From positions 1 to 23,164 of IMG/VR virus record IMGVR_UViG_3300042567_000400: a stretch of DNA of 23,164 nt, one strand, 5' to 3'. A program made the translations under genes and the position numbers. The notes below the pieces were generated by a model, which saw only the letters and a list, made by a program, of their open reading frames with translations, had not been told where the DNA came from and made no database searches. Source of the DNA: a virus. Below, piece after piece: positions 884-22,819 of this stretch; within the stretch, counting starts at the first letter, position 1, and the number at the start of each line of letters is the position of its first letter.

Positions 884-1095
884 GCTGCACCGTCCGGCGT
901 GTAGTTGCTCGGGTGGTGATAGCGCGACGTGATTGCCGTCCACTCGTCATCGCTGACGCGTGAGTAGTTGGTGACTGTTTGTGAGCGCTTCGTCTCAGCA
1001 CACTTGTGATTGAGAAACGCTTGAGCCTGAGCTGCGTCGTCGTCGTGCCAGAACACTTTGCGACAGTTGGCGCAGGTGATGTTCGCCCCGCTCAT
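880..1095 (-). CDS. Small zinc-finger-like protein (71 aa)
   Basis: ATG at 1095 overlaps the TGA of the excisionase-like gene (ATGA). The N-terminal half carries CANC at about residues 8-11, then about 20 residues later an H-x-C pair (NHKC), giving a C2HC set that could hold one zinc ion. The C-terminal half is polar and includes DDEWTAITSRYHHPSNYTPD. Small zinc-ribbon or zinc-finger proteins are common in actinophage early operons and usually lack a known role. Zinc binding is inferred from the cysteine and histidine pattern only; nucleic-acid or protein binding are both possible. Confidence 0.65.
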   Translation of the reverse strand: MSGANITCANCRKVFWHDDDAAQAQAFLNHKCAETKRSQTVTNYSRVSDDEWTAITSRYHHPSNYTPDGAA

Positions 1096-1307
1096 GCCGC
1101 ACGCTCTGGGGTGGTGGTGTGGCGGCCGATCCACTTGTCGATCGCAACGATGTCGAAACGAAGCCGACGATCGATGCGCGTGACGGGGATGCGGTTCTGC
1201 TTGACCAGCTCGTAGATCGTGTCCTTCGACAGCCCGGTGTATTCGACCAGCCAGGGAAGGTCACGAAGTCGCCCAAGTTGGCCCGATTCGGTAGTGAGTG
1301 GCTCCAT
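1092..1307 (-). CDS. xis: Excisionase/AlpA-like winged-helix DNA-binding protein
   Basis: A 71-aa protein with the MerR/excisionase-type helix-turn-helix (HTH_17-like): LPWLVEYTGLSKDTIYELVK, then a wing region (NRIPVTRIDRRLRFDIVAID) ending KWIGRH. This size and motif are typical of phage excisionases, recombination directionality factors that bind attL/attR and push the integrase toward excision. It is the first gene of the leftward early operon, divergent from the repressor, the usual place for xis or cro. It is separated from the integrase by the repressor, so switching would be set by which promoter is active. The start sits about 8 bases after a -10-like hexamer, giving an almost leaderless mRNA. 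A Cro-like regulator is the main alternative. Confidence 0.75.
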   Translation of the reverse strand: MEPLTTESGQLGRLRDLPWLVEYTGLSKDTIYELVKQNRIPVTRIDRRLRFDIVAIDKWIGRHTTTPERAA

Positions 1308-1437: not shown

Positions 1438-1815
1438 ATGAGCAGAAATAGCAGCACCACCGTCGAGCAGCGCAAAGCGTTCTCGGTCGCTCTTGAAGCG
1501 GCAATGCAGTCGGCTGGGATTCGATCGGCAGCCGACCTCTACCGGCGCGGATCGGCAGCCGGCATTGATCGCACCGCCGACACCTTTAATAAGTGGTTCC
1601 GTGGAGAGTCCGAGATTGCCGTGCCGCACGTCTTGATCCTCGAGCAGATCTGCGGCGTTGAGCCAGGACACCTCTCACGCCACCTGGGCTGGGTTCCCGT
1701 TGGAGTCAGTGAACAGACCACGATCGAGCAGCTGATCTTGGTCGATCGGAATCTCACCGACGCCAACAAAGCCACCTTGCTCGGGCTGCTGGAGCAGCTG
1801 CGGCGAGTTCAGTAG
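1438..1815 (+). CDS. Immunity repressor (Cro/CI-like HTH)
   Basis: A 125-aa protein, one of only two rightward genes supported here. Residues about 10-70 form an HTH_3-type domain: a helix with SVALEAAMQSAGIRSAADLY, then GIDRTADTFNKWFRGES as the turn and recognition helix, followed by the VLILEQICGVEPGHLSRHL helices. The C-terminal part (TIEQLILVDRNLTDANKATL) is short and probably serves for dimerisation. There is no LexA/S24 peptidase domain, so induction would not be by RecA-stimulated self-cleavage. Its position, divergent from the early operon and next to the integrase, is that of the lysogeny repressor in many temperate actinophages. Repeats on both sides of the intergenic region are candidate operators. 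Confidence 0.8.
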   Translation: MSRNSSTTVEQRKAFSVALEAAMQSAGIRSAADLYRRGSAAGIDRTADTFNKWFRGESEIAVPHVLILEQICGVEPGHLSRHLGWVPVGVSEQTTIEQLILVDRNLTDANKATLLGLLEQLRRVQ

Positions 1816-2056: not shown

Positions 2057-2095
2057 GTGACCAAAGTCACGCGCAAGCGGTAGCGCTTATTGCGC
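2057..2095. terminator. Hairpins at the integrase 3' end
   Basis: GTGAC/GTCAC (2057-2061 and 2066-2070, 4-base loop) is followed by GCGCAA/TTGCGC (2071-2076 and 2090-2095). Nested inside the second is AAGCG/CGCTT (2075-2079 and 2084-2088). The integrase TAA (2089-2087) lies in this second hairpin. There is no U-tract, so this may be a weak terminator or a processing and stability element rather than an intrinsic terminator. Confidence 0.35.
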
Positions 2096-3196
2096 AGACC
2101 TCAGGTCGTCGAGGTCGCCAGCCAGTTCGGCATCCATGCCAGCCATCAGATGCCCGTAGCGATCCATCGTGATCGCGATCGAGGCGTGGCCAAGCCGCTG
2201 CTGGATTGCCTTCGGGTGAGCGCCAGCATTGATCGCCAGGGCAACCGAGGTGTGGCGTAGGTCGTGAAAGCGAGGCATGTTGACGAAGGCTGGCTTGTAG
2301 TTCCTGATGACCTGCTCCCCCATGCCGGCGGCGTAACAGGCTGGGTACCAGATGTTGCGTCGAAAGCTTTGAGCGATCGGCTTGCCGAACGAACTGGTGA
2401 AAATCAGGTCGCTTGGCTTCGGGCCGGTGAACTGCTCAAGGTGTGCTTGCAGTTCGATCGCTACCGATTGAGGCAGCACGATCGTGCGTCGGCCAGCTGC
2501 AGTCTTGGGATCTTCTCGCAGCCATTGTTTGTTGAGAAAGATCAGCTGCCCAGCGACGGTGACGCGCGCGCCTTGGACATCCATGCGACGCAGGCCGACG
2601 AGTTCAGACCAGCGCAGACCGCCATAGGCAGCCACCAAGACGAGGCACTTGTAGCGCTTAGGAATGGCAGCGGCGATTGCTTCGATCTGCTCAACGGTAA
2701 AGGTCTCCATGTCACGTCGAGGGATGCGTGGCGCTTTGACTTTGTCGACAACATTCTTCGCAGCGATCCCCTGGTCGACTGCCCAGTTGAGCATCGTGGC
2801 AAGTGTGCGGTGATGACGCCGAACGCTCGAGGGCGCGAGACGTTGCATCTCTTGAGCCAGCCATCGCTGCACTGCCGGCGGCGTGAGCGCTGAGACTTTG
2901 AGATCTCCGAAGGTCGGCAAGATGTAGCGGTTCAGGTCGCGCTGGTAAGTCCAGAGGGTGCCAGGAGAGAGATGGATCGAGGCGTCGATCCACATCTCGG
3001 CCAATTCGGCCACCGAGATCGAGCCGTCGTAAGAGGTTCGCAAGCCGCGCTTGATGTCGGTGGTAACTGAGGCGAGATAGGCGGTGGCTTGCTTCTTGGT
3101 CTCAAAAGACTTGGCCCGCTGAGCGCCGTTCTCGTCTCGCCAGCGTGCTCTCCACTTGCCCCGATGGTTATCAATCGCCACGTCTCGCCCTTCCAT
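2087..3196 (-). CDS. int: Tyrosine-type site-specific integrase
   Basis: A phage integrase of about 369 aa. The N-terminus holds an AP2-like arm-binding domain (GKWRARWRDENGAQRAKSFE). A SAM-like core-binding domain (about 60-150) comes next, then the catalytic domain. Catalytic residues are visible: Arg in GGLRWSE, the H-x-x-R of HDLRHTS, the His of LGHAS and the nucleophilic Tyr in TMDRYGHL. I chose the ATG at 3196 (MEGRDVAIDN) because the frame extending to 3244 would run through the paired GGTACAC arm sites; the ribosome-binding site (AGGG) is weak and close. The gene lies beside a tRNA-Leu 3' fragment, so it should integrate into a host tRNA-Leu(UAA). Arm sites just upstream of its start suggest autoregulation. 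Confidence 0.95.
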   Translation of the reverse strand: MEGRDVAIDNHRGKWRARWRDENGAQRAKSFETKKQATAYLASVTTDIKRGLRTSYDGSISVAELAEMWIDASIHLSPGTLWTYQRDLNRYILPTFGDLKVSALTPPAVQRWLAQEMQRLAPSSVRRHHRTLATMLNWAVDQGIAAKNVVDKVKAPRIPRRDMETFTVEQIEAIAAAIPKRYKCLVLVAAYGGLRWSELVGLRRMDVQGARVTVAGQLIFLNKQWLREDPKTAAGRRTIVLPQSVAIELQAHLEQFTGPKPSDLIFTSSFGKPIAQSFRRNIWYPACYAAGMGEQVIRNYKPAFVNMPRFHDLRHTSVALAINAGAHPKAIQQRLGHASIAITMDRYGHLMAGMDAELAGDLDDLRSAQ

Positions 3197-3205
3197 ATCC
3201 CTAGC

Positions 3206-3227
3206 GGTACACATTACGGTACACATT
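3206..3227 (+). repeat. Integrase arm-type repeat pair 1
   Basis: GGTACACATT occurs at 3206-3215 and again at 3218-3227, a 12-base step. The pair sits between the integrase start and the attP core. The same heptamer recurs in two more pairs on the other side of the core, as expected for sites bound by the integrase N-terminal domain. Confidence 0.6.
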
Positions 3228-3311
3228 TCGGGCCCGATTCGCACCGATTCGGGCCAGTTGCGGCCATTGCGTCAGTTTGTGACGACGTTGCGAAACTGTC
3301 CAGAAAACCAA

Positions 3312-3341
3312 CAAAAACCCCGCTTTTTTGCAGGGTTTTTG
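3312..3341 (-). terminator. tRNA-Leu terminator carried in attP
   Basis: CAAAAACCC (3312-3320) and GGGTTTTTG (3333-3341) form a 9-bp stem extended inward by a GC pair after one mismatch. On the minus strand the hairpin follows the tRNA 3' end by only a few bases and ends in a T5 run, so it is a good intrinsic terminator for a tRNA read leftward. Being A/T-flanked on both sides it could also stop rightward transcription. Confidence 0.75.
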
Positions 3342-3345
3342 TAAG

Positions 3346-3402
3346 TGCCCGGAGCGGGATTTGAACCCGCAAGAAGTTGCCTCCCGGGGGGTTTAAGCCC
3401 CC
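3346..3402 (-). other. attP core: 3' half of tRNA-Leu(UAA)
   Basis: Read on the minus strand this gives an anticodon arm GGGGG-CTTAAAC-CCCCC (3402-3386, anticodon TAA), then a variable arm (3385-3371). The T-arm GCGGG-TTCAAAT-CCCGC (3370-3354) and the 3' acceptor strand TCCGGGC plus discriminator A (3353-3346) complete it, with no encoded CCA. Upstream of the anticodon stem there is no D-arm and no GCCCGGA acceptor strand, so the tRNA is not complete. Integration at such a core would restore an intact host tRNA gene. The strand exchange point is probably in or near the anticodon loop, as is usual for tyrosine integrases using tRNA genes. Confidence 0.85.
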
Positions 3403-3440
3403 TCTACACGTTCAAGGGGCACATGGGATTAGAGGCCCCC

Positions 3441-3481
3441 GGTACACCATTTGGTACACGAAAAAGGCCGATTTGTGTACC
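3441..3481. repeat. Integrase arm-type repeat pair 2 plus an inverted copy
   Basis: GGTACAC occurs at 3441-3447 and 3453-3459, again 12 bases apart, and in inverted form as GTGTACC at 3475-3481. These lie on the far side of the tRNA core from the integrase gene, forming the opposite attP arm. Confidence 0.6.
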
Positions 3482-3491
3482 AGAAAAAACC

Positions 3492-3578
3492 CTAGCGAGA
3501 CCCCTCGGCTTTCTTCATTGCGAGACTAACTGGCACTTGGCGATCGAGCGGCGACGATTTAGGCCGAGGGGTTGCTAG
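3492..3578. repeat. Long-range inverted repeat in the attP arm
   Basis: ACCCCTCGGC (3500-3509) pairs perfectly with GCCGAGGGGT (3563-3572). The match is extended by CTAGC (3492-3496) with GCTAG (3574-3578) after a small asymmetric bulge. The 53-base interval holds no gene. It may be a structured RNA, a recombination-protein site, or part of the host-derived flank. Role unknown. Confidence 0.5.
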
Positions 3579-3632
3579 ACAACCATCACTTCCGTCTACG
3601 CCCAACGCACACAAGGCATCGCCGGTGCTGCT

Positions 3633-3652
3633 GGTACACATCGGTACACATC
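3633..3652 (+). repeat. Integrase arm-type repeat pair 3
   Basis: GGTACACATC occurs at 3633-3642 and immediately again at 3643-3652, a 10-base step instead of 12. It is the outermost pair, about 240 bases from the core. No gene is seen from 3403 to 3756; that stretch holds only attP arm repeats, the long inverted repeat and one hairpin. Confidence 0.55.
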
Positions 3653-3910: not shown

Positions 3911-3954
3911 GAAGATCCCCCGCCGTGGCCTATTGGCACTAGCGGGGGATCTTC
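3911..3954. terminator. Bidirectional terminator between convergent genes
   Basis: GAAGATCCCCCGC (3911-3923) and GCGGGGGATCTTC (3942-3954) form a perfect 13-bp stem with an 18-base loop. It starts five bases after the stop of the rightward 49-aa gene and lies past the end of the leftward late operon. A clear U-tract is missing, but the stem is the strongest in this part of the window and placed exactly where both transcripts should end. The stretch 3955-4052 holds no further gene. Confidence 0.75.
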
Positions 3955-4071: not shown

Positions 4072-4321
4072 CTGGAGGGATGGTGGCGTTCACTGGCAGC
4101 GTCATCAGCGAGGTGGTGCCCTTGTCGCCGATGCCAGCCGAAGCGATCGAGCTCAGAAGACTGAGCACGCCAGCGGTGGCGGCGGTGCCGGCGATGGCTT
4201 GCCAGTCGGCGGTGAACCAATCGAAGGTCGTCGCAGCGATGACGGCGATGAGCGCCTGGGCGACTGTCTTGATCGCGCGCTCGGCGGCTGACTTCCAGAA
4301 GGTGGCGGTGAACATGGTCAT
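4055..4321 (-). CDS. Phage r1t-type holin
   Basis: An 88-aa protein starting MTMFTATFWKSAAERAIKTV. The FWK-x-AAERA-x-KT-x-AQAL signature is the hallmark of the Lactococcus phage r1t holin family, common in actinophages. Two hydrophobic helices follow (about residues 18-34 and 38-62), giving the hairpin topology of small holins that permeabilise the inner membrane at lysis. The ATG overlaps the TGA of the Ntn hydrolase gene by four bases, so the two are translationally coupled. It is the last gene of the late operon, several genes after the endolysin, an unusually wide separation for a lysis pair. Confidence 0.85.
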   Translation of the reverse strand: MTMFTATFWKSAAERAIKTVAQALIAVIAATTFDWFTADWQAIAGTAATAGVLSLLSSIASAGIGDKGTTSLMTLPVNATIPPGSEIL

Positions 4322-4860
4322 GGCTCCTGTGTTGATTGCGTGAGAACGGTGAAGGGTTCGCAGACTGAGGTCGAGTGCAGCGCAGCTGCTCGCAATGCCA
4401 TCTCGACTCGAGCTGCTGGGTCGCCTTGAGTTGAGGCCAGTGAGCCAAGCGCTAGGTGATCGCCACAGCCGATGGCTTCGTAGCCGAGGATTGATCTGCC
4501 GACGTGGTAATCCTCGTCAATGCAGTAGAGAGCGCCCCGGTAGCCGACCAAGAATACTCCGCCACTGTCTTCATTGTCGCTGCTCTTGGCGAAGCCTCCC
4601 TGGTGGAAGAGCTTGCGGCAGGCGTCGACGAACACGGTGCACATGTGGCTCATGTCGTCATCGGTGATCTGCTTGGGCACCTTGAGTCGGTACTGCAGCA
4701 GCTGGCCCATTCGGAACGAGTCGCAGTAGCCGATCAGATACTCACCAACGGTGAAGACTTTCGGCTCGGTGTAGCGAGTGATGCGTGTGTCTTCGACTGC
4801 AGCGGCGTCGCCGCCGATGATGACGGTGCCGTCATGCTCGAGGCCGACGATGCAGGTCAC
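4318..4860 (-). CDS. Proteasome/HslV-like Ntn hydrolase
   Basis: A 180-aa protein starting MTCIVGLEHDG, followed by IIGGDAA and later EPKVF. Loss of the initiator Met would expose Thr2. With Asp18 in GGDA and Lys34 in EPKVF this reproduces the Thr1-Asp17-Lys33 spacing of proteasome beta and HslV catalytic subunits. The following strand (IGYCDSF) and a helix-rich C-terminal half fit the four-layer Ntn fold, and the length is close to that of HslV. No ATPase partner such as HslU is in the window. Similar phage proteins exist but their substrate is not established. It overlaps the holin and the upstream membrane gene by four bases each, so it belongs to the lysis/late operon. The catalytic assignment is by motif; activity is untested. 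Confidence 0.8.
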   Translation of the reverse strand: MTCIVGLEHDGTVIIGGDAAAVEDTRITRYTEPKVFTVGEYLIGYCDSFRMGQLLQYRLKVPKQITDDDMSHMCTVFVDACRKLFHQGGFAKSSDNEDSGGVFLVGYRGALYCIDEDYHVGRSILGYEAIGCGDHLALGSLASTQGDPAARVEMALRAAALHSTSVCEPFTVLTQSTQEP

Positions 4861-15031: not shown

Positions 15032-15558
15032 TAGATTCTCCAGACGCGGACATAGCCGCGGACGATTTCGTTAGCGCCATGCTCGGCAAGGAACCACGCA
15101 ACCTCTGAGCCTTTGCCCTGGTCGTCTTCGTTGTCGTCGACTGCGACGATCGAGCCAGGGGCCAGCAGGTTGAGAGCTGCCATGAGTTCGCTGAGGTGAT
15201 GAGCTGCTGCTGGCTGCGGGTTCTTAAAGTCCACATCGAACGAGTCGAGGTAGAGAAAGTCGCAATGGCCGGTGAGTGTTGGGATCACATCGAGTGAGTC
15301 GCCGACGATGGCGGTCGTTGCTTGCAGTCCAAGTTCGGCGACAAGTTCAGCGCCAAGTGGATTGATGTCAATCGTGGTGACGGTGCCGCCGAGGTCGGTG
15401 GCGAGTTGGTCCCACACGATCGTTGACTGACCGTCGCCTTCCCAGTTGCCCAGGTCTCTGACGGTTCCGGTCTCAACGATGCGACAGCCTTCGCCCAGCA
15501 GCTCGGCGATGGTGGCGAATGCTTCGTGCCGTTTGCCGAGCCGGTCCCAGGCGATCAC
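15031..15558 (-). CDS. Class I SAM-dependent methyltransferase-like protein
   Basis: A 175-aa protein with a Rossmann-like pattern. RIVETGTVRD holds motif I (E-x-G-x-x-x-D), GTVTTIDINP gives the acidic end of strand 2 that would bind the SAM ribose, CDFLYLDSFD is the strand-4 motif, and PGSIVAVDDNEDD follows. The overall plan resembles the Methyltransf_24 / CmcI-like group. The start overlaps the stop of the glycosyltransferase gene as ATGA, so the two are made together and may act on the same glycan or protein. Placement between capsid and connector genes is unusual. Substrate unknown; a non-enzymatic derivative is possible. Confidence 0.7.
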   Translation of the reverse strand: MIAWDRLGKRHEAFATIAELLGEGCRIVETGTVRDLGNWEGDGQSTIVWDQLATDLGGTVTTIDINPLGAELVAELGLQATTAIVGDSLDVIPTLTGHCDFLYLDSFDVDFKNPQPAAAHHLSELMAALNLLAPGSIVAVDDNEDDQGKGSEVAWFLAEHGANEIVRGYVRVWRI

Positions 15559-16835
15559 TTCGCCATCAGTTCGTCGATCTCGGCGAGCACTGGCAGCCAG
15601 TATTTGTCGAAGACGATCTTGTTGTCGTAGGTCTCAGCGTGTGCTCGAGCAGCAGCCTTTCGGTCTGCGTCTCGGGCGGTGTCGTAGGCGTGCTCAAGTT
15701 GCTCAAGCACTGAATGCACCAGCGGTGTGGCGAACCATGAGGTCTGCAGTGCGTCCCAATAGGGCTGCACGGAGACGAGGTAGCCGTGATCTTCGACGAG
15801 CTCAGGCTGAGCGGTGAAGTTAGAGACGATTGAGGGCACGCCGCAGGCGGCAGCTTCGATGACTGGAACGCCGAACCCTTCGCCACGAGAGGCAGCGAGG
15901 TTGACATCCATCGCACCCATGAGACCTGCCAGCACAAACGGCGGCAGACCTGCGTAGTAGGCCCACTGGTCAGTCCAGACGATGCGGTTCTCTGGGATAC
16001 CGCAAGCGCCGGCAAGTTGGACGAGATCCACGCCGCCTTGTGCGCCACGTTTCTCGGTGTGCATGTAGACGTAGACATCGTCATGGCTGGCCATGAACTG
16101 GCCGAGCGCCAGCAGGTTCTCGCCCCACGCTTTGCGCATCGGTGCGATGCCCTTATTGGCAGCGACGATTCCGACCACGAATGCGTCGTCGGGGATCTTG
16201 AGAAGTTGGCGACCTGTCGCACCGTCAACGGTTGCGCCTGGTCGAAACGTGTGAGTGTCGACGCCGTGTGGGATGTAGCGATGGTCAATGCCGGCAGCCT
16301 CGAGCATGCGTGCGCCATAGTTCGCCATTGCGATCGGCAGCACATTGTCTCGGCGGCACCAGTCGAGAACGTCCGGCGGTGCGGGCGTGTGATCGATTGG
16401 CACCCATGAGGCGATGACTTTGATGTCGTCGAGCTTTGCGCCTTTGAAGACCCAAGTGTCGAAGAGTGTGATTAGAGCGGTGGGTCGACCGGTCTGGTCT
16501 TGGGAGTACTTGAGGTGAGCGTCGAGGACGTCTGCCGAGTAGGGGTGGAAGCCGGTCGGGAGGACTTCGATGCCTTCCCACTCGGTGATGAAACCTTGGG
16601 TGCCGTAGTTGTTGGAGAGGGTGATCGGTCGGCCGGTGGCTTTGATTTGGCGCGCGACTTGCGCGGTTTGGACGCCGTAGCCGGTGCCTGCTCCTGCGAA
16701 GTTTGAGTGCCAGCAGATTCCTGCACGAGTGTCGCCACTGACGCTTCGACTAGGTACTGCGCCAGGTATGGCGGCAGCTCGACCTCGCTGTTGCGTATGA
16801 CGACCCACATGGCCGGTGCCTTTCTTCTTGCCCAT
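15555..16835 (-). CDS. GT4-family (GT-B) glycosyltransferase
   Basis: From ATG 16835 (426 aa), with AGGAG six bases upstream. The GT-B domain begins near residue 39: GICWHSNFAGAGTGYGVQ is the N-terminal Gly-rich loop. A linker with MEAAGIDHRYIPHGVDTHTF, the VVGIVAANKGIAPMRKAWG strand and the GT4 donor motif GEGFGVPVIEAAACGVPSIV (E-x7-E) follow. It should transfer a sugar from a nucleotide-sugar to a protein or glycan. Its place right after the capsid gene suggests modification of virion proteins or of host surface glycans. The first ~38 residues are Arg/Ser-rich and do not look like GT sequence, while another frame over the same DNA does look protein-like, so the start is uncertain. Confidence 0.85.
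   Translation of the reverse strand: MGKKKGTGHVGRHTQQRGRAAAIPGAVPSRSVSGDTRAGICWHSNFAGAGTGYGVQTAQVARQIKATGRPITLSNNYGTQGFITEWEGIEVLPTGFHPYSADVLDAHLKYSQDQTGRPTALITLFDTWVFKGAKLDDIKVIASWVPIDHTPAPPDVLDWCRRDNVLPIAMANYGARMLEAAGIDHRYIPHGVDTHTFRPGATVDGATGRQLLKIPDDAFVVGIVAANKGIAPMRKAWGENLLALGQFMASHDDVYVYMHTEKRGAQGGVDLVQLAGACGIPENRIVWTDQWAYYAGLPPFVLAGLMGAMDVNLAASRGEGFGVPVIEAAACGVPSIVSNFTAQPELVEDHGYLVSVQPYWDALQTSWFATPLVHSVLEQLEHAYDTARDADRKAAARAHAETYDNKIVFDKYWLPVLAEIDELMAK
16472..16810 (-). CDS. Possible overlapping ORF (112 aa) in another frame at the glycosyltransferase start
   Basis: From ATG 16810, with GAAAGG upstream, this frame reads MWVVIRNSEVELPPYLAQYL, then VEASVATLVQESAG, before becoming Lys/Pro/Ser/Thr-rich (KPRKSRAKSKPP). 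The first ~33 residues are amphipathic and more protein-like than the glycosyltransferase frame over the same bases. The later part lies antiphase to clear GT sequence and could be a by-product. Small proteins starting MWVV occur after capsid genes in other actinophages in my recollection, so a genuine short gene with a frame change, or an overlapping pair, is possible. Its C-terminal limit is unsure. Confidence 0.35.
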   Translation of the reverse strand: MWVVIRNSEVELPPYLAQYLVEASVATLVQESAGTQTSQEQAPATASKPRKSRAKSKPPADRSPSPTTTAPKVSSPSGKASKSSRPASTPTRQTSSTLTSSTPKTRPVDPPL

Positions 16836-22580: not shown

Positions 22581-22819
22581 GACGTGGGACTCTGGAACCG
22601 TTTTCCGATGCTCGGACAAACTCCGCACAGGTTGGCCCAGGAGCGCCTGCCAGTGGTTCGGCTAAGTGGTTTTGCATGAGCAGGCACAGCGATCGAGCTG
22701 CGTGGCTGCTAGGGTGCTCTCAGTCCCAACTCCCCCGGCAACGCCGTGGGGGGGAATGTCAGGGGGACATGGGGTAGTTCTGGTGCGGATCACAGAAAAA
22801 CGACCCGGTACGGGGGGTC
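22581..22819. other. Structured non-coding stretch, candidate packaging (cos/pac) region
   Basis: About 240 bases with no supported gene between HNH endonuclease and prim-pol. It holds CCCCCGGC-AAC-GCCG followed by a G-run (22732-22754), able to form a GC-rich hairpin, and next to it ATGTC/GACAT (22756-22770) around a G5 run. Several further G-runs occur between 22750 and 22830. Phages with an HNH gene beside the terminase usually have their cos site close by, so this is the best candidate. No cleavage site can be pointed out. Confidence 0.35.

Follow-up and report, generated by a model that had tools for sequence, protein, structure and literature searches.

The region at positions 3206-3652 of the DNA analysed here (the window, a stretch of 23,164 bases comprising positions 1 to 23,164 of the source record IMGVR_UViG_3300042567_000400) is very probably an intact phage attachment site (attP), with its core at the anticodon loop of tRNA-Leu(UAA), an integrase that would act through paired GTGTACC arms, and a host tRNA that would be kept whole. 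A tRNA 3' half as the core, an adjacent tyrosine integrase gene (PF00589) and arm-type repeats on both sides are the marks of a tyrosine-integrase attP, and all of them are present in the sequence of this locus. The features considered below are as follows, with the offsets of the arm-type sites counted from the first base of the core:

1092-1307, minus strand: excisionase-like helix-turn-helix protein (HTH_17; phrog_66, excisionase and transcriptional regulator)
2087-3181, minus strand: tyrosine integrase gene (PF00589, PF14659, PF22022, phrog_1)
3206-3212, minus strand: putative arm-type site GTGTACC, integrase-proximal pair, offset +185
3218-3224, minus strand: putative arm-type site, integrase-proximal pair, offset +173
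3311-3342, minus strand: predicted intrinsic terminator behind the tRNA 3' end and upstream of the integrase gene (13-bp stem, then a T-rich tail)
3346-3397, minus strand: tRNA-Leu(UAA) 3' half, the attP core region (from sequence reading, compensatory pairs and ARAGORN with a generic 5' half)
3391-3397, minus strand: anticodon loop CTTAAAC, the likely strand-exchange (overlap) region
3441-3447, minus strand: putative arm-type site, core-proximal pair on the late-gene side, offset -50
3453-3459, minus strand: putative arm-type site, core-proximal pair on the late-gene side, offset -62
3475-3481, plus strand: putative arm-type site, inverted, in the long attP form only, offset -84
3633-3639, minus strand: putative outer arm-type site, in the long form only, offset -242
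3643-3649, minus strand: putative outer arm-type site, in the long form only, offset -252
3911-3954, no strand assigned: 13-bp perfect inverted repeat between the late genes and attP (from a repeat search; similar repeats lie upstream in relatives)

In the process that we propose, the N-terminal domain of the integrase would bind the paired GTGTACC arm sites, and the anticodon-loop core would recombine with the same loop of a host tRNA-Leu(UAA) gene, joining the host 5' half to the phage 3' half to give a whole tRNA. In the lysogen, the restored tRNA would be followed by the phage-carried terminator, an arm pair and the integrase gene, all on one strand. The terminator may have two roles in this arrangement: ending the tRNA transcript in the lysogen, and protecting the integrase gene, in the lysogen from tRNA transcription and in the free phage from late transcription. 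The site marks an uncultured phage as temperate and names tRNA-Leu-UAA as the gene to seek in a probably actinobacterial host. In addition, within its phage family, what stays in place in attP (arms, spacing and terminator) can be distinguished from what is swapped (the tRNA half). Apart from the naming of the target and the family comparison, this is ordinary phage biology.

The tRNA half and the integrase gene

Read along the minus strand from 3397 to 3346, the tRNA half consists of the anticodon loop, the 3' strand of the anticodon stem, a long variable arm, the T-arm, the 3' strand of the acceptor stem and A73; it ends with this discriminator A and carries no CCA. A complete tRNA gene was sought with ARAGORN and found neither in the window nor in the loci L001-L068, L069-L088 and L089-L115. 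When the 3' half was joined by script to a generic leucine 5' half, the product was called tRNA-Leu(taa) by the same program, as were the 3' halves of three relatives joined to this 5' half (3/3). None of 200 shuffled 3' halves (single-base shuffles with the first 7 nt kept) was called as a tRNA, a lenient control, as the 5' half had been made to pair with the acceptor strand. A search of Rfam gave no tRNA match above the gathering score, the best being tRNA-Sec at 27.9 bits (gathering score 47), which fell to 25.6 bits once the stretch was cut at the core.

The pairing pattern was examined in an alignment of eight Leu-type copies out of 12 (7 distinct rows; L003, L004, L005 and L018 were omitted, being near-identical). 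In these eight rows, pairing was 100% in the variable arm and in the T-stem, with one compensatory pair each, while covariation was small with seven distinct rows and two of the five measures were no higher than their shuffles. Judged by these pairings, the tRNA half is conserved as tRNA. The anticodon stem was just 71% paired, compared with 100% for the variable arm and T-stem, and the relatives have no tRNA sequence on its 5' strand; we therefore place the start of the homology at the anticodon loop, and by this comparison the full anticodon stem of the window copy is incidental on its 5' strand. As the tRNA homology of the relatives begins at the anticodon loop, strand exchange in this phage is likely to take place within it. 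Class I integrases such as that of L5 are described as having their crossover in the anticodon loop (PMC1762012). The first-pass annotation, made from the letters of the window alone, had listed an anticodon arm, variable arm, T-arm and acceptor strand of a tRNA-Leu(UAA) and no 5' half. Of this reading, the anticodon loop, variable arm, T-arm and acceptor strand stand and the full anticodon arm does not, given its incidental 5' strand.

The open reading frame of the integrase extends to 3244, but comparison with relatives makes a GTG at 3181, or an ATG at 3196, the likelier start. Its catalytic residues, located by the usual active-site motif, are conserved in an alignment of relatives. With the likely start at the GTG at 3181, the arm pair at 3206-3224 falls into the leader of the integrase gene, and the integrase could thus regulate itself through this pair. 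Self-regulation has been reported for intS of KplE1 (PMC2951348).

Beyond attP, on the side opposite the integrase gene, are the late genes (endolysin, tail tape measure, capsid, protease, portal and terminase), and the inverted repeat at 3911-3954 is probably the terminator of the late operon. Two further genes of the window may be mentioned. Beside the integrase and excisionase-like genes, an open reading frame on the opposite strand (1438-1815, plus strand) resembles an HTH repressor by eye; it had no match in Pfam or PHROG. At 4318-4860, in the late genes close to their lysis end, there is a match to an HslV-like peptidase family (phrog_1040).

Relatives, predicted terminator and putative arm-type repeats

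Relatives of the integrase were drawn from viral_contigs, and the types of their attachment sites were read by eye in the upstream regions. Besides the window, 11 loci (L002-L009, L015, L018 and L019, several of them near-identical) carry a tRNA-Leu(UAA) 3' half. Five loci (L010-L013 and L057) carry a different 3' end, here called B type, which runs from the T-loop to CCA (TCAAGTCCCCCCTCCGACACCA). A tRNA-Cys(GCA) 3' half is present in 10 loci (L014, L016, L017, L050-L054, L070 and L083, with L051-L053 alike), and a tRNA-Cys 5' half in two (L073 and L095, which are 99.4% identical over 902 bp). The comparison of arms and hairpins took 18 rows, the window and 17 of these loci; the more distant loci (23-47% identity: L020-L024, L074-L082, L084-L088 and L096-L107) were left out of the comparison of attachment sites, and L074, L075 and L078 served as the outgroup of the tree. 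This tree, built on 23 integrase rows, placed the B group in one well-supported set (100/99) and the Leu group in one set with weak support (73/0), and the Cys type needed two changes. We prefer to read the B type as a tRNA end cut in the T-loop, since this reading ends in a normal acceptor strand plus CCA; a tRNA-Leu(CAA) cut in the anticodon loop was also considered for it and is less favoured for the same reason.

The call of an intrinsic terminator at 3311-3342 rests on conservation, because a single terminator-like match in 1.1 kb is at the level of chance (shuffle mean 1.0). A hairpin of -13.4 kcal/mol or lower with at least 8 T at its end was found behind the tRNA part in 17 of the 18 rows (the window and 17 relatives), the exception being L017, in which the hairpin is followed by 5 T. 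Among 204 random segments of 125 nt from the loci of the 17 relatives, 64 reached this energy and 6 also the T count; as the basic hairpin rule, which demands no T-run, passes 200 of the 204, only the energy and the T count are informative. Under a stricter hairpin rule, 16 of the 18 rows were found, and L015 and L019 were missed. A terminator behind the tRNA half, as proposed from the first reading of the window, is supported by the 13-bp stem with its T-rich tail and by the contrast between 17/18 rows and 6/204 random segments.

The position of this hairpin bears on its origin. In the eight Leu rows it starts at +54 to +57, i.e., 2-5 nt behind the tRNA end at +52. In the six Cys rows it starts at +44 to +46, about 0-2 nt behind a tRNA end near +44 (judged by eye in L050, L051 and L054, where the hairpin starts at +45). 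In the four B rows, it starts at +56 or +57 though the tRNA part ends at +22. In addition, similar hairpins (AAAACCCCGC...GCGGGGTTTT) with similar following sequence recur behind three different tRNA ends, and L050-L054 have another hairpin sequence at the corresponding place.

These observations can be explained in two ways. One is capture of the terminator from a host along with the tRNA 3' half, in which case the phage would give the gene back its own 3' end. The terminator stands directly behind the tRNA end in the Leu and Cys rows and could simply follow the tRNA, and we regard such a capture as a possible but minority explanation, to be given roughly one chance in a few. In the B rows, however, the hairpin keeps the position that it has in the Leu rows despite the much earlier end of the tRNA part, and the hairpin and its following sequence are shared across the three tRNA ends. 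The alternative explanation, that the terminator belongs to the phage, is based on this B-type position and on the recurrence of the hairpin with three tRNA ends; we favour it, as the terminator looks more like a part of the phage's own attachment-site framework than like captured host flank. The case against capture depends on the B type: the Leu and Cys types by themselves would fit a terminator that follows the tRNA end, and do not separate the two readings. The B type, a tRNA end of no assigned isotype, in turn carries less weight for this reason. A phage terminator that completes the 3' end of a host tRNA gene is plausible.

The heptamer GGTACAC (GTGTACC on the other strand) occurs 8 times in the window, compared with 0.87 expected, and 7 of the 8 copies lie within 3206-3649 (444 bp) around the tRNA half. 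Both inner pairs keep their distances in the relatives: the pair at -62/-50 and the pair at +172 to +174 / +184 to +185 are each present in all 12 rows of the Leu and B types, where we chose the position of the B-core anchor. One to three of these four sites are altered in six of the 12 rows (L008, L011, L013, L015, L019 and L057), as counted with motif variants listed by eye. A further inverted site is found at +151 to +159 in four of the 12 (L008, L009, L010 and L015). In the Cys type, the distances are shifted, to -60 to -71 / -49 to -60 on one side and +140 to +152 / +151 to +163 on the other. A helical phasing of the arm distances was considered and set aside, as the numbers fitted poorly.

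It is improbable that the GTGTACC copies are repressor operators or excisionase sites: the integrase-proximal pair lies in the leader of the integrase gene, where regulation could act, and GTGTACC is also found in the tRNA-Cys loci L070 and L073, so that the repeat does not simply track the target. Against this, repeat pairs on both sides of a core follow the arm-type pattern given in a published description (PMC3203893), and several related integrases have a changed repeat, GTGCACA, at like places (L016, L050, L051 and L054). We retain the GTGTACC copies as putative arm-type sites of the integrase.

Extra outer sites are present in four of the eight Leu rows analysed (the window, L002, L006 and L008). 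By eye, the flanks of the outer pair in this long form are those of the inner pair in the short form (L007), which would fit an insertion of about 190 bp carrying an arm pair of its own. Positions 3480-3632 are part of this apparent insert of about 190 bp, and a long interrupted inverted repeat (3500-3509 / 3563-3572) lies within it; folded as a possible RNA, this repeat did no better than shuffles (z -1.0; 31 of 200 fold as well), and we draw no conclusion from it.

Kindred integrases are found beside Leu(UAA) and T-loop-cut halves at the same spacing, and beside a tRNA-Cys(GCA) half at a similar, shifted spacing. A tentative hypothesis, to which we give less than even weight, is that one chassis of arms, terminator and integrase gene acts as a socket for exchangeable tRNA halves, such that the target, and even its polarity, may be changed without rebuilding the arms; the long forms would have gained about 190 bp, with the old arm pair pushed outward and a new pair placed at the required -62/-50. 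The two loci with a tRNA-Cys(GCA) 5' half may be described here. In L073 (456-497, with the equivalent stretch in L095), this half lies between arm pairs at -83/-72 and +161/+172, a possible attachment site of reversed polarity, and when it was joined by script to the 3' halves of six relatives, tRNA-Cys(gca) was called in 6/6. No terminator-like site was found at this stretch, where shuffled sequence yields 0.6. Phages that recombine with the 5' part of a tRNA gene are known, but are described as less frequent (PMC6563490, citing Zhao and Williams 2002).

A site inside the phage genome

A 3' tRNA half beside an integrase gene is also expected at one end of a prophage, and the 23-kb record is shorter than its relatives of about 31 kb. 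The window could accordingly be taken for a prophage end or remnant, in which the tRNA half would be the 3' part of the host gene at attR with host DNA beyond it. We consider this very unlikely. The late phage genes continue on the far side of the core, arm-like pairs lie on both sides of it, and no complete tRNA was found. Exact end repeats, as in circular assemblies, were present in two of the five related contigs tested and in none of the other three. In a Leu-type relative of 31,090 bp, an end repeat of 126 bp stands behind 8 extra bases at the start, and attP, in the same arrangement as in the window, lies inside the contig; in a B-type relative of 31,709 bp, the end repeat is 123 bp and the corresponding site is likewise inside. 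Over most of its length, the window matches the 31,090-bp relative, of which about 8 kb is missing from the window. The self-overlap of this relative largely refutes a prophage end, and a junction (attL or attR) with host DNA directly beyond the core was rejected in view of the phage genes on both sides and the end-overlapping relatives.

The attP identity proposed in the first-pass annotation is thereby upheld. It had rested on an integrase to the left of the site and lysis genes to its right, an order now confirmed by the PF00589 and phrog_1 assignments of the integrase and by the endolysin and other late genes; the absence of a complete tRNA, the paired arm-like sites around the core, the excisionase-like gene nearby and the two relatives with end repeats point in the same direction. 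The annotation had also named two findings that would count against it, a complete tRNA-Leu gene adjacent to the site and host sequence starting directly beyond the core: ARAGORN found no such gene in the window, and phage genes lie on both sides of the core instead. The weakest alternative, that the phage destroys the host tRNA and substitutes a tRNA gene of its own, as described for the tRNA-dependent lysogeny of other actinobacteriophages (PMC10865867), is most improbable and was rejected, as the conserved tRNA part is 52 nt rather than the about 10 of a short core, and ARAGORN detected no tRNA gene either in the window or in five relatives (24-32 kb), which were scanned as overlapping halves.

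The ends of other contigs deserve a separate comment. Three related contigs (G003, G017 and G008) have an end at nearly the same place, corresponding to about 22,720-22,800 in the window; the start GTGGACAGCAGTGCGCTGACAG is found in two of them and the end GGGCTGG in all three, one of them reversed. This suggests fixed genome ends (cos) near 22.77 kb of the window; G008 and G017 may be one population.

Described attachment sites and the probable host

In a blastn search of the phage collection at E 0.01, the 447-bp attP gave no match. Eight regions of named phages, chosen from the 20 listed of 2,251 records, were read for the same arrangement. A tRNA-like 3' end with a strong hairpin nearby was seen in five of the eight chosen regions, in a hairpin survey that left out L114, and the arrangement is therefore not rare in this sample. 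In L112, L113 and L115, the tRNA-like end and the hairpin are upstream of the integrase gene (in L115 the hairpin has no T-run). In L108 and L110, they lie past the end of the integrase gene on the other strand, the end in L108 being identified by eye. L109 begins within a tRNA-like end and no hairpin was seen in it, and L111 showed neither in the stretch read. In the Nibb (Anayavirus) region, a hairpin stands behind a putative 3' end of a tmRNA.

The closest described counterpart is attP of mycobacteriophage CrimD and other Cluster K1 phages, which was set beside the window by its published description. In that description, the CrimD site is formed by the 3' end of a tmRNA, with two pairs of arm sites and a putative terminator, a stem-loop, placed between the core and P3 (PMC3203893). 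The window resembles it in having a core made of a host tRNA-like 3' end 5' of the integrase gene, two flanking arm pairs and a stem-loop (PMC3203893), and in the window, too, the stem-loop lies between the core and the integrase-side arm pair. The anatomy of a tRNA or tmRNA 3' end, terminator and paired arms has thus already been published for CrimD, and the site described here is another example of it, not a new arrangement. The two differ in that the CrimD target is a tmRNA with a 24-bp core near the T-stem, whereas the half in the window is that of tRNA-Leu(UAA) from the anticodon loop on; furthermore, P3/P4 of CrimD are described as inverted relative to P1/P2 (PMC3203893), whereas both inner pairs of the window have the same direction and three extra sites are present.

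Similarities to other sites were likewise drawn from published descriptions alone. As described for L5, the window combines a core in the anticodon loop with direct, paired arm-type sites plus extra ones and a tyrosine integrase, but the L5 target is a tRNA-Gly (PMC1762012, PMC3203893). As described for Tweety and Pixie, it has a long common core (40 or more bases) over a tRNA that would be rebuilt on integration; these phages differ in their tRNA-Lys target and in the sequence of their arm sites (PMC2884959, PMC3203893), which in Pixie are given as one pair, a set of three and an inverted site (PMC3203893). Reconstruction of a tRNA by a core of 30-45 bp has been described as typical (PMC10865867).

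According to the first-pass annotation, the site would also tell which host tRNA to look for. The target can indeed be named as tRNA-Leu(UAA), but the host gene itself had no match in genome_contigs: the exact 57-mer attP query gave 0 matches there, an absence that does not exclude the host, and a degenerate 53-base pattern (43 specified bases) also gave 0. Whole-tRNA patterns for lysogen junctions gave 0 matches in viral_contigs for the Leu type and 0 for the B type. The host is probably actinobacterial, because a WhiB gene is present in a close relative and the best-listed named match of the capsid protein is to a Pontimonas phage. The WhiB gene (PF02467; L060 14814-15170) lies in the part of the 31-kb relative that is absent from the window, and was the one such match among ten open reading frames tested; whiB has been used as a sign of an actinobacterial host (PMC6802176). 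The major capsid protein is 36.9% identical to that of Pontimonas phage phiPsal1 (MG835450), the best among the named phages listed. In genome size and late-gene content, phiPsal1 is similar to the phage studied here, but its 56 annotated features include no integrase. Among the head genes of the window, a glycosyltransferase gene is found at 15555-16835 (Glyco_trans_1_4, phrog_2170), and phiPsal1 also has one behind its capsid gene.
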